Assembly (NCBI GenBank): GCA_016209865.1
Contig: JACQVL010000158.1
Location: forward strand, 1-16,765
Length of the DNA: 16,765 nucleotides
Origin: Candidatus Latescibacterota bacterium
GTDB lineage: Bacteria; JAAXHH01; JACQVL01
Direction: 5' to 3'
Part shown: positions 5,866 through 9,318 of the stretch, one piece after another
Layout of the letters: each line of letters begins with the position of its first letter
How positions within the stretch are numbered: position 1 is the stretch's first letter
Program-made: the position numbers and the translations under genes
The notes under the pieces: generated by a model
Databases searched by the model: none
What the model was told of the DNA's origin: nothing
Seen by the model: only the letters and a program-made list of their open reading frames with translations

Positions 5866-6540
5866 ATGCTCTACCTGGTCGCCACACCCATCGGGAATTT
5901 GAATGACATCACGCTCCGCGCCCTTGAGGTGCTGAGGACGGTCGATGTCATCGCGAGCGAGGACACCCGGAAGACGGGGCTGCTGTTGAAGCACTTTGAG
6001 ATCAAGAAGCCCCTGATCTCCTTCCATGAGCACAACGAACAGCAGGCGGGCGAGCGGCTCATCGCCCTGCTCCAACAGGGACAATCAGTCGCCCTCGTCA
6101 CGAACGCGGGGACGCCGGGCATTGCCGACCCCGGCTTCACACTCGTCCGCCGCGCTCTGGCCACGCACGTCGAGGTGACGATGCTGCCCGGGCCCACCGC
6201 GCTTGTCATGGCGCTCGTCCTCTCCGGCCTGCCCGTGCACAGCTTTACGTTCCGGGGCTTTCCTCCTCGCAAGCCGGGCCCACGGCGACGCTTCCTGGAA
6301 ATCGATCAGCATTCTCCCCACACGCTGATCTTCTATGAGAGTCCCTACCGACTCGACGCGTTCCTCAGCGACGCCCTGGCCGTCTTCGGGGATCGGCAGG
6401 CCGCTCTGGCGAACGACCTGACGAAGCGGTTCGAGACGGTGCTGCGCGGGACGCTGTCAGACCTGAGAGAGGCTGTCGCCCGTTCGAAGCCGCTTGGAGA
6501 GTATGTCATCGTGATCGCGGGAGCGGGGGATGCCGCCTAA
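5866..6540 (+). CDS. rsmI: 16S rRNA (cytidine-1402 2'-O)-methyltransferase
   Basis: 224 residues from ATG 5866. This start gives the family-typical [16 protein letters not shown]; in-frame starts at 5785 (GTG) and 5818 (ATG) overlap PhyH and add unrelated residues. RsmI uses S-adenosylmethionine to methylate the ribose of C1402 in helix 44, next to the P-site codon. Visible motifs are [36 protein letters not shown] and the LTKRFE segment. Two features differ from the common form: the usual SDAGTP reads TNAGTP, and the protein stops near residue 224, whereas the E. coli enzyme has an additional C-terminal domain; short forms are known. It overlaps the next gene by 11 bases (ATGCCGCCTAA), indicating an operon. 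Confidence 0.93.
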
Positions 6541-7645
6541 ACGGTTGTCGCTCATCCACGGGGAGGTGCGTCTTCCGGCGTTCATGCCAGACGCGACATC
6601 CGGGATGGTTCATGCGGTGGATGCGTCCGACCTGGAGCACGCGGGGGTGGAGGCCCTGGTCATGAACGTGTTCCATCTGATGCAGAAGCCGGGGTCTTCC
6701 ACGATTCAGGCGCTGGGCGGGTTGCACGCAATGACGGCCTGGCCGCGCCCGATCATCACGGATTCCGGGGGGTTCCAGGTGTATTCGCTCATCCGGCAGA
6801 ACCCCAAACTGGGCGGCCTGAGCGACCAGGGGGTGCGTTTTCAGCCGGAACACGCGGGGCGACGATTCCTCCTGACCCCGGAAAAGAGCGTGCAGCTCCA
6901 GGTTGCGTACGGAGCGGATGTGGTGATGTGCCTGGATGATTGCACTCACGTGGACGATCCGTTCGCCGAACAACGCGTCTCGGTCGAACGCACGATCCGA
7001 TGGGCCAGACGCTGCAAAGCGGAGTTTGAACGGCAGGGAGCACAACGGGGATGGACGGAGGGACGCCGTCCTCTGGTGTTTGGGGTCGTGCAAGGCGGGG
7101 GAGACAAGGCGCTCCGGGGGGATTGTGCCGCCACGCTCCTGGAGATCGGGTTTGACGGGTTCGGGTATGGCGGATGGCCGCTCAATAACCGGGGAGAGTT
7201 GTTGGATGAGATGCTCGCCGTGACGCGCTCGTTCATCCCCCCGGCGTTCCCGATGCATGCCCTGGGCGTAGGCCATCCGGAGAACGTGCTGGCGTGCGCC
7301 CGGCTGGGCTACGACCTGTTCGACAGCGCCCTCCCCACCCGGGACGCGCGGCATGGCCGTCTCTATGTCTACACATCCGACCCGACGAAACCCGATTTTC
7401 GTTTACAGGGCGAATGGTCTGCCTGTCTGTATATCCACGACAAGAAGCATATCAAGACGAAGACTCCCCTCTCGCCCGGCTGTGACTGTCACACCTGTTC
7501 GACGTACACGATCGGGTATTTACACCATCTTGCGAAGAGTGACGAGTCTCTCTTCTGCCGCCTGGCCACGATCCACAACGTCCGGTTCATGATGCGTCTG
7601 ATAGGATTGATCGCGCAACACAGAACGATGAATGATGAACGATGA
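6530..7645 (+). CDS. tgt: Divergent tRNA-guanine transglycosylase family protein
   Basis: 371 residues, normal for TGT enzymes, which exchange a tRNA guanine (G34 in bacteria) for a 7-deazaguanine base. The start overlaps rsm[22 protein letters not shown] matches the family opening. Present are D78 in DSGGFQV, D136/D137 in LDDCT, GVVQGG (185-190), GVGHPEN, and nucleophile region [13 protein letters not shown] with D265. The zinc site is complete: C318, C320, C323 and H349 in TIHN, with the same Cys-to-His spacing as the E. coli enzyme. Unusually, the base-recognition loop, GGLAVGE in bacterial enzymes, reads FGYGGWPL (211-218), so the base inserted may differ from preQ1. No queuosine-biosynthesis genes are in the window. 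It overlaps the next methyltransferase gene at its 3' end. Confidence 0.88.
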
Positions 7646-8456
7646 ACGTAAAGACCTGGATCGCTTGGTGCAGGTTGTACTCGACAGTCCGAAGTATCGA
7701 GGCGTCAGCGAAGTAGTGGTCAGGCAGATCGGCCAGCGGGAACTGTCGGCGGGACGGAGTCTGAAACAGGCGATCAAGGCCACGAAGAACGTCCTGCACC
7801 AGATCACCGGCGCGTACCGGGACGTCGGCGGGCGGTACACGGAATGGAGCCACGCGCTCACGGCGGCGCAGACTGGGGGAATGGAGTGTTTCCGAGCCGC
7901 CTGTACCCGGATTCTCCGCAGCCATGCCTCGACCCGTGAACGCCTCAGCCTGCTGCCTGAGTTCTACACCAGGACGTTCGCCGCTCTCCCGCCGATCCGG
8001 TCGGTCCTCGACATCGCCTGCGGCCTCAACCCGTTGACCATCCCCTGGATGAACCTTGATCGAGAGGTGCGCTACGAGGCGTACGACATCGATACCGGCC
8101 TCGGCACGTTCCTCAGCCGATTCTTCCAGATCGCCGGAATCCGCGGGACCGCGCACGTGTGCGATGTCACCATCGCTCCACCCACCCAGCGAGCCGACCT
8201 CGCCCTTATCCTGAAAGCCCTGCCGACGCTCGAACACCTCCACAAGACCGCCGGCCTCTCCCTCCTCCGGTCGCTCAACGTCGACGCCATCCTGGTCTCC
8301 TTTCCCGTCCAGAGCCTCGGCGGAAGAGAGAAGGGGATGCGACACCATTACGCCACACGATGGCTCGCCAGTGTCCAGACCGAACCCTGGTCGGTCACGC
8401 GGTTCGATTTTGCGACGGAGCTGGTGTTCCTGGTCGAGAAGCGCGAGCCAGAATAG
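7635..8456 (+). CDS. 16S rRNA m7G1405 methyltransferase homologue (FmrO/Arm/Rmt family)
   Basis: 273 residues from ATG 7635 (7632 is equally possible), overlapping the TGT gene. The match to the aminoglycoside-resistance methyltransferases that add a methyl to N7 of 16S G1405 is good along the whole length: SPKYRGVSEVVV (18-29), an Arm/Rmt-like LHQITGAY segment (54-61), HASTRERL (97-104), SAM motif VLDIACGLNPL (124-134), DID (151-153), ADLALILKALPTLE (187-200) and the family signature SFPVQSLGGREKGM (222-235). Producers of gentamicin-type drugs carry FmrO-type enzymes, and plasmid forms include ArmA and RmtB. Here it is operonic with rRNA and tRNA modification genes, with no transposase or resistance genes nearby, so a housekeeping or intrinsic role is likely. 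Activity and resistance are inferred by homology, not shown. Confidence 0.88.
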   Translation: MNDERKDLDRLVQVVLDSPKYRGVSEVVVRQIGQRELSAGRSLKQAIKATKNVLHQITGAYRDVGGRYTEWSHALTAAQTGGMECFRAACTRILRSHASTRERLSLLPEFYTRTFAALPPIRSVLDIACGLNPLTIPWMNLDREVRYEAYDIDTGLGTFLSRFFQIAGIRGTAHVCDVTIAPPTQRADLALILKALPTLEHLHKTAGLSLLRSLNVDAILVSFPVQSLGGREKGMRHHYATRWLASVQTEPWSVTRFDFATELVFLVEKREPE

Positions 8457-8461
8457 TTATG

Positions 8462-8587
8462 CACCACAAAGACACAAAGGACACAAAGAGAATAACCCAA
8501 CTCTTGCTCTCCATTCTGTCATGCCCGCGAAAGCGGGAATCCAGTCATTGTGAGCCTTCTTTGTGTGCTTCGTGTCTTTGTGGTGAA
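8462..8587. repeat. CACCACAAAG inverted-arm repeat, copy 2, with a nested palindromic repeat
   Basis: Left arm 8462-8490 and right arm 8559-8587 are inverted copies of the element at 300-381. Here the spacer is 68 bases instead of 24. Most of the extra length is a different element around 8512-8550 (separate entry). The right arm reads through the last 14 codons of the minus-strand mobA-like gene. The whole block lies between the converging rRNA methyltransferase and mobA genes and could fold into a long hairpin, but no T-run marks a terminator. Confidence 0.85.
8512..8550. repeat. Nested palindromic repeat (ATGCCC-N8-GGGAAT)
   Basis: The core ATGCCCGCGAAAGCGGGAAT (8521-8540) has a CCCGC/GCGGG stem closed by a GAAA tetraloop, flanked by ATTCTGTC and CCAGTCATT, which extend the imperfect symmetry. 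The ATTCCC-N8-GGGAAT layout is like the dRS3-type elements of Neisseria, differing at one base; this is resemblance, not proof of common origin. The element sits inside the spacer of the surrounding repeat, so it probably entered later. Its right flank (TCA at 8545-8547) supplies the mobA stop codon. Confidence 0.7.
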
Positions 8588-9165
8588 GATTCCTCCTCCA
8601 GCATCTTCAACGCTTCCGCGTACTCGTCCGGGGTGTTCACGTTGAACAATGCCCGACGGTCGAACAACGGCGTGTCTTCCGGGCGGACGGGCCGGACGCG
8701 CACCCGGTCGAAAAACGACGCGATCTTCAACTGGCCGGCGTCCAGACTGGCGCTGATGGGGTCGAGACAGGATTTCGCATACACCGCGCACAGGGGTTCG
8801 TAGCCGTGCCCGGTCACCGGGACGACCACGTCATACCCGTCCGCGATGCCGACCAGGTACCGTAAGAATGCCGGGCGCACGAACGGCATATCGCAGGCGA
8901 CGAACACCCCTCGCTCTGAGGTCATCGACAGGATGCCCGTGTAGAGGCCTCCGAGGGCCCCACAGTCCGGTCGCACATCCCCGACCATCCGGAGACCGAG
9001 GAACGCATACTCGTCCGGGGTATTCGTGACGAGCAGGAGGTCATCGGCGACCTCTCGCATCGCCCGGACTAACCGCTCGATCAGCCGTTCTCCACGAAAT
9101 GCGCTCAGCGCTTTATTCGACCCGAATCGGCGGCTTCTGCCCCCGGCCAGGATCACGCCCGTCAT
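8545..9165 (-). CDS. mobA: MobA-like nucleotidyltransferase (molybdenum cofactor guanylyltransferase)
   Basis: 206 residues from ATG at 9165, chosen because MTGVILAGGRSRRFGSNKAL is the canonical first strand and nucleotide loop. The open frame continues upstream, but only through repeat DNA. MobA joins GMP to molybdopterin to make the dinucleotide cofactor; the same fold serves related NTP transferases. Visible are LAGGRSRRFG (6-15) with K18, GALGGLYTG (69-77), and the metal-binding Asp D92 in ACDMPFV, plus VNTPDEY near the end (176-182). The last residues, from about 193, are encoded by the dispersed repeat (SPQRHEAHKEGSQ) and the stop codon lies in the nested element, so the natural C-terminus has been replaced or extended. 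The ribosome-binding site GAGGGG also lies in a repeat. No other molybdopterin genes are visible, so the specific substrate is moderately sure. Confidence 0.85.
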   Translation of the reverse strand: MTGVILAGGRSRRFGSNKALSAFRGERLIERLVRAMREVADDLLLVTNTPDEYAFLGLRMVGDVRPDCGALGGLYTGILSMTSERGVFVACDMPFVRPAFLRYLVGIADGYDVVVPVTGHGYEPLCAVYAKSCLDPISASLDAGQLKIASFFDRVRVRPVRPEDTPLFDRRALFNVNTPDEYAEALKMLEEESSPQRHEAHKEGSQ

Positions 9166-9168
9166 CAG

Positions 9169-9285
9169 CCCCTCACTATCCCCTGGCCCCTTCCTCTCCC
9201 ACGATGGGGAGAGGAAGGGGAATGGATGATGAATCATACCTTGCTCCCCTCTCCCCGCAGTGGGAGAGGGGCCGGGGGTGAGGGG
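9169..9285. repeat. GC-rich double-hairpin intergenic repeat
   Basis: Two strong stems occur: a 14-bp stem 9187-9200 / 9207-9220 (CCCCTTCCTCTCCC and complement) around a 6-base loop, and a 10-bp stem 9246-9255 / 9262-9271 (CCCCTCTCCC and complement). The outer ends also pair: CCCCTCAC at 9169-9176 with GTGAGGGG at 9278-9285, so the block is one large inverted repeat. Elements of this CCCTCACCCC...CCCTCTCCC style are common in unrelated bacterial genomes. It lies between the divergent mobA and TPR genes and contributes the mobA ribosome-binding site. Confidence 0.85.
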
Positions 9286-9318
9286 TTCGACATGAACCAA
9301 TCTCACCCAGTTTCAATC

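Follow-up and report, generated by a model that had tools for sequence, protein, structure and literature searches.

A second TGT clade linked to FmrO-family and RsmI genes in several bacterial phyla: a possible module for modification of the 30S decoding centre

To our knowledge, every characterised RNA-acting transglycosylase of the TGT family acts on tRNA, and we know of no direct evidence for the action of a TGT on rRNA. DpdA, a DNA transglycosylase related to TGT, has been adapted to a substrate that is not tRNA G34. In the TGT of Z. mobilis, a flip of the Leu231/Ala232 peptide, with Glu235 pairing with either state, allows preQ1 or guanine to be accepted, and the substitution Ala232Ser lowers the turnover about a hundredfold (PMC3660597). 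In 16S rRNA, RsmF forms m5C1407 and RsmE forms m3U1498 (E. coli positions, PMC4119055), and RsmI is reported to have a role in P-site fidelity (PMC5053481). In the present study, we analyzed a stretch of 16,765 nucleotides (hereafter, the window) from contig JACQVL010000158.1 of a Candidatus Latescibacterota bacterium, in which three genes on the forward strand overlap one another: rsmI (5866-6540, 224 aa), a TGT-family gene that we call TGT2 (6530-7645, 371 aa), and an FmrO/Arm/Rmt-family gene (7632-8456, 274 aa; hereafter, FmrO). The rsmI and TGT2 genes share 11 bases, and TGT2 and FmrO share 14 bases if the latter begins at the ATG at 7632, or 11 bases if it begins at the ATG at 7635. A first-pass annotation had described this arrangement, the overlap lengths and the three families; all of the open reading frames were found at these coordinates, and the profile scores exceeded the cut-offs of TIGR00096 (rsmI), PF01702 (TGT2) and PF07091 (FmrO). 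A scan for sigma-70-like promoters and terminators gave nothing above chance. Two pairs of inverted repeats of the CACAAAGACACAAAG type are located at 305-376 and 8465-8582, the second directly after the FmrO gene; the four matches, against 0.01 expected by chance, resemble a short dispersed repeat element. The window also has an open reading frame of 440 aa (1488-2810), located after a DNA polymerase IV gene, without a match in Pfam or NCBIfam.

The two methyltransferase genes can be assigned to known families. The rsmI product scored 226.7 bits against the TIGR00096 equivalog cut-off of 167.9 and is predicted to be the 16S rRNA C1402 2'-O-methyltransferase. Its gene was the single match, and thus the sole copy found, in the genome of the window (G000), and RsmI was kept by 15 of the 16 genomes of the phylum; since the operon holds the housekeeping copy, its position there may be a matter of convenience. 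Four Anaerolineaceae loci (L115, L117, L119 and L122) have a divergent RsmI paralogue beside TGT2, and a canonical RsmI gene is also present there, some kilobases off on the opposite strand. The FmrO protein scored 180.2 bits (PF07091 cut-off, 27), remained below the curated equivalog cut-off for Rmt G1405 enzymes, NF000466 (214 vs 250 bits), and had Sgm (3lcu, 144 bits) as the nearest solved structure. On the forward strand, we located the HASTRER motif (residues 98-104, 7923..7943), in which H, S, T, E and R are conserved with RmtB, RmtF, RmtE, ArmA and RmtC; the SAM-binding motif DIACGLNP (residues 127-134, 8010..8033), conserved with the Arm/Rmt references; and the LGGREKGM...Y motif (residues 229-240, 8316..8351), in which G231, G235, M236 and Y240 are identical in these references. 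The residues common to the five named enzymes (HxSTxER, D127, C130, D152, K195, P225, G231, G235, M236, Y240 and E263) are retained, and the protein is predicted to be a 16S rRNA G1405-N7 methyltransferase. Many Anaerolineae have, in tandem with the first FmrO, a member of a second FmrO clade, FmrO-B (support 100; for example, L060 9889-10710). The GM...Y motif is often missing from FmrO-B. Among the FmrO proteins with low scores, most of which are FmrO-B, Pro198, Gly235 and Met236 are usually lost and Tyr240 is lost in about half of the proteins, with the SAM site retained; thus, FmrO-B may methylate a different target. Single-sequence scans of genome and viral contigs gave no FmrO relatives; overly specific peptide patterns are the probable reason.

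The TGT-family protein scored 326.1 bits against the PF01702 cut-off of 26.3. It passed the superfamily model TIGR00449, and its score was lower than the thresholds of the Q_tRNA_tgt equivalog TIGR00430 (298.6, below 306.75), the archaeosine TGT model TIGR00432 (86.7 vs 350) and the DpdA model NF041059 (20.4 vs 200). The HMM scores of the TGT proteins from the fetched loci were bimodal (233-297 vs 474-704, with an empty gap between them), and in the maximum-likelihood tree, one branch with SH-aLRT support of 100 sets apart all of the TGT2 proteins. The operon TGT is a paralogue of the canonical TGT. We did not see a phage origin of TGT2, the phage TGT matches being as distant as canonical TGT (32-36% among the matches listed). 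In the genome of the window, a canonical TGT is encoded elsewhere (G000:C144; 520 bits vs 325 for TGT2) together with QueA, and tRNA G34 is thus presumably already served. A clear canonical TGT was found in 32 of the 34 TGT2-bearing genomes examined (437-547 bits vs about 292-331 for TGT2); in the remaining two, the draft genomes G059 and G089, canonical TGT was found only as a weak fragment or not at all. QueA was present in 21 of 22 module genomes examined. The first-pass annotation had supposed that the operon TGT modifies tRNA G34. This part of it was not supported, because nearly all of the module genomes examined also have a canonical TGT and QueA; on the same ground we rejected TGT2 as a plain Q34 enzyme, and the altered base pocket and separate clade of TGT2 also speak against the premise. 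As a separate observation, Chloroflexus islandicus (G061) has a canonical TGT and TGT2 with no detectable QueA; thus, queuosine maturation may differ in this organism.

Comparison of 95 TGT2 proteins with 44 canonical TGTs indicated which parts of the enzyme are kept and which are changed. The catalytic Asp pair, the zinc ligands and the guanine-recognition motifs are retained. In the window (all on the forward strand), Asp78 (6761..6763) lies in DSGGFQ, a motif common to canonical TGT, and corresponds to Z. mobilis Asp102; Asp265 (7322..7324) corresponds to the nucleophile Asp280; and both are invariant. The zinc site of Cys318, Cys320, Cys323 and His349 (7481..7576) is conserved in the TGT2 alignments, and Cys158, which is tied to preQ1 affinity, and the PTRxAR arginines are also retained. 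The base pocket is different, with GGWPLD in place of the canonical GGLSVGE and loss of the Glu235 equivalent. The GGWPL motif of the window (residues 214-218, 7169..7183), which replaces GGLSV(GE), has Trp in 94 and Pro in all 95 of the TGT2 proteins, whereas the 44 canonical proteins have Leu, Met or Val followed by Ser or Ala, and an invariant Glu. Furthermore, PVGT is changed to PDAT and Met260 to Leu, four residues (IRQN) are inserted after the helix of DSGGFQ, and about 15 more (residues 283-297, 7376..7420, with a conserved Trp296) are inserted ahead of the zinc domain. The latter insertion is absent from all or nearly all of the 44 canonical TGTs, and position 296 is Trp or Phe in 91 of the 95 TGT2 proteins. 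Thus, the flexible Leu231-Ala232 peptide and the Glu235 switch were not found in TGT2; W216-P217 is at this site in nearly all of the proteins and the Glu is absent, and base selection must therefore differ. An AlphaFold model of TGT2 (pLDDT 92, pTM 0.90) had the RNA-trapped TGT 1q2r as its best PDB match (TM 0.86). From the kept catalytic residues and the match of the model to solved TGTs, it is most likely that TGT2 has retained the exchange of guanine in RNA.

The gene triple is not unique to this genome and recurs across phyla. It is present in two other genomes of the same order (G013 and G011; loci L041 and L042), in two genomes of another phylum (G049 and G212; L040 and L216), and in many loci of Chloroflexota and some of Armatimonadota, which makes four phylum-level groups overall. 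In all three module-bearing genomes of the order of the window, a gene for a MobA-like NTP transferase is convergent to FmrO (window 8548-9306, reverse strand; L041 2116-2721 and L042 202-888, both forward strand). A metagenome-assembled genome titled Candidatus Zixiibacteriota (L081/G078) seems to be identical to the G011 assembly, and its title is probably a misnomer. Scanning GTDB contigs with a TGT2 alignment yielded 80 loci, mainly from Chloroflexota with some from Armatimonadota and Poribacteria, and 7 of them have no partner gene nearby. We counted adjacency in those 68 loci that extend 1 kb or more to either side, loci of one class being non-independent: a same-strand FmrO gene is found within 1 kb in 63 and RsmI lies within 1 kb in 24, whereas neither gene is found within this distance in any of 30 canonical TGT loci. 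When the search was started from FmrO, TGT2 was located within 1 kb in 21 of 27 loci. The gene order is shuffled with the linkage kept in L167 (RsmI-FmrO-TGT2) and L156 (FmrO-TGT2), and this speaks against simple inheritance of an ancestral order. A fusion of TGT2 to FmrO or RsmI would be strong evidence that the proteins act together, but none was found in the loci.

Joint presence and absence was also observed. Of 121 evenly sampled Chloroflexota genomes, 23 had FmrO and 21 had TGT2, all of the latter being among the former, and 98 had neither (Fisher p about 1e-21, ignoring shared ancestry). As for the FmrO-only genomes, TGT2 is truncated at the contig end in L165, and FmrO is at a contig edge beside RsmI in L176; contamination of metagenome-assembled genomes and contig ends touch such single loci, not the totals. 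Among the 16 genomes of the phylum of the window, the 3 with FmrO are the 3 with TGT2, and the other 13 have neither. These counts indicate that TGT2 and FmrO are a near-obligate pair and that RsmI is a frequent associate. Cultured carriers of the module include Chloroflexus, Ornatilinea apprima, Leptolinea tardivitalis, Thermogemmatispora and Dictyobacter aurantiacus. A coordinated decoding-centre module, as had been proposed from the window, is strongly supported by the conservation across phyla and by the shared presence and absence of TGT2 and FmrO.

We clustered the neighbours of TGT2 and then annotated the recurrent clusters. RsmF-like genes were found near TGT2 in 20 loci, RsmE-like genes in 17, and a COG1738-type queuosine-precursor transporter gene in 12; FmrO-B was also among the recurrent neighbours. 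The genes of L099 form a single run on one strand (transporter-RsmI-TGT2-FmrO-FmrO-RsmF), L108 and L123 have TGT2-FmrO-FmrO-RsmE-RsmI, and the full set lies within about 9 kb in L059, L060, L115, L117, L119 and L122. Thus, the recurrent partners are mostly enzymes for one small region of 16S rRNA, together with a carrier for the TGT base. The gain of RsmF (C1407), RsmE (U1498) and the transporter by the cluster in other lineages further supports a decoding-centre module.

The genes themselves, their linkage and co-occurrence across phyla, the co-resident canonical TGT, the retention of the catalytic residues and the alteration of the base pocket were observed directly, whereas the RNA substrate of TGT2, the base that it exchanges and the consequences for the cell are inferred. 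The best explanation, which we regard with belief and doubt in about equal measure, is a modification module of the 30S decoding centre, in which TGT2 swaps a guanine, most likely of 16S rRNA, alongside m7G1405. RsmI would methylate the 2'-O of C1402, and the FmrO-family enzyme would methylate N7 of G1405. TGT2 would perform a double-displacement base exchange, as in Tgt, with Asp265 as the nucleophile and the zinc domain, and would put a 7-deazaguanine, for example preQ1 or preQ0, in the place of guanine. Since Q34 is served by the canonical TGT, the partner is an rRNA methyltransferase, and the neighbours include 16S rRNA enzymes and a transporter, the target would most likely be a guanosine in the decoding region of 16S rRNA rather than tRNA G34, and the effect could be the tuning of decoding or protection from antibiotics that act at the decoding site. 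A covarying target base was not found, the 16S decoding region being identical whether or not a genome has the module. UGU, the minimal TGT motif, is present at 1391-1393 of this segment; however, G1392 presumably pairs in h28, and thus we do not name it as the target.

An alternative possibility, close to the view of the first-pass annotation, is that the substrate of TGT2 is tRNA, either some tRNAs at G34 or a different tRNA position, so that decoding would be tuned both from the wobble base of tRNA and from the P-site of 16S rRNA. The fold and architecture of TGT2 match those of the tRNA-acting TGTs, with the RNA-trapped structure as the best match, and the PTRxAR arginines are kept. Furthermore, the wobble base in the P-site stacks on C1400, which adjoins C1402. 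However, the same genomes have a canonical TGT and QueA, TGT2 comes and goes with a member of an rRNA methyltransferase family, and the annotated recurrent neighbour clusters hold several families of 16S decoding-site methyltransferases and no tRNA-modifying enzyme; we therefore consider action on tRNA rather unlikely, though it is the strongest of the competing readings. TGT2 might instead recognise m7G1405, or a neighbouring guanine, and swap in guanine or a 7-deazaguanine, which would make the mark of FmrO reversible. Such erasing or recycling would be in line with the base-exchange chemistry of TGT, and would account for the near-obligate pairing with FmrO and for the altered pocket around position 7 of the base, but it has no precedent, and it leaves the queuosine-precursor transporter of the cluster unexplained unless the incoming base is a deazaguanine. 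We regard it as improbable.

We give a similarly small chance to the idea that the genes are an intrinsic cassette for aminoglycoside resistance with TGT2 as a bystander or helper. The FmrO family is indeed the G1405 resistance family of producers and of acquired resistance. Nevertheless, the module is chromosomal and conserved across phyla together with housekeeping 16S methyltransferases, no transfer or aminoglycoside biosynthesis genes were recognised among the recurrent neighbours of TGT2, the plasmid-borne Rmt/ArmA relatives are less than 40% identical, and a role in resistance only would give TGT2 no reason for its near-perfect co-occurrence with FmrO. That the adjacency reflects inherited synteny or chance, with the genes functionally uncoupled, is very improbable. 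Related Anaerolineae contribute many of the loci; however, the linkage spans several phyla and persists in shuffled orders, sister lineages lack both genes, none of the 30 canonical TGT loci has it, and the present counts, in which ancestry is ignored, point to joint gain and loss of TGT2 and FmrO above chance.

Returning to a module that acts on the decoding centre, we tentatively propose, with somewhat more doubt than confidence, that TGT2 is the first transglycosylase that puts a 7-deazaguanine into rRNA, by acting on a guanosine that neighbours m7G1405 and Cm1402 in the 16S decoding centre. A literature search limited to open-licence papers found no published description of the rsmI/TGT2/FmrO linkage. 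If rRNA is the substrate of TGT2, 7-deazaguanine would represent a new class of rRNA modification, located at the meeting point of codon and anticodon; the queuosine pathway would feed tRNA and the ribosome alike, and the decoding site of some bacterial phyla would itself contain deazaguanine. The module would also turn m7G1405, a known mark of drug resistance, into a permanent part of normal ribosomes throughout entire lineages, and would explain the role of G1405 methyltransferases outside antibiotic producers.

Each component of the locus has a described counterpart. RsmI agrees with the enzyme that forms m4Cm1402 with RsmH, as judged by the equivalog match above the cut-off, and here is in an operon with TGT2 and FmrO. 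FmrO shares PF07091, the family residues and Sgm as its nearest structure with the Arm/Rmt/Sgm/FmrO m7G1405 methyltransferases; however, it is only 24-37% identical to the plasmid-borne RmtB, RmtF, RmtE, ArmA and RmtC over full-length matches, and it is chromosomal and paired with TGT2, without a producer or plasmid context. DpdA inserts 7-deazaguanine in a DNA-modification context, whereas the context of TGT2 is that of rRNA modification. The bacterial Tgt of the queuosine pathway (Z. mobilis, T. maritima and E. coli) has the same fold as TGT2 (TM 0.86), the same catalytic Asp pair and zinc ligands, and the motifs DSGGFQ and VQGG. In contrast to this enzyme, TGT2 forms a separate clade with GGWPLD, PDAT, and the IRQN and 15-residue insertions, coexists with the canonical Tgt, and is linked to 16S rRNA methyltransferases.
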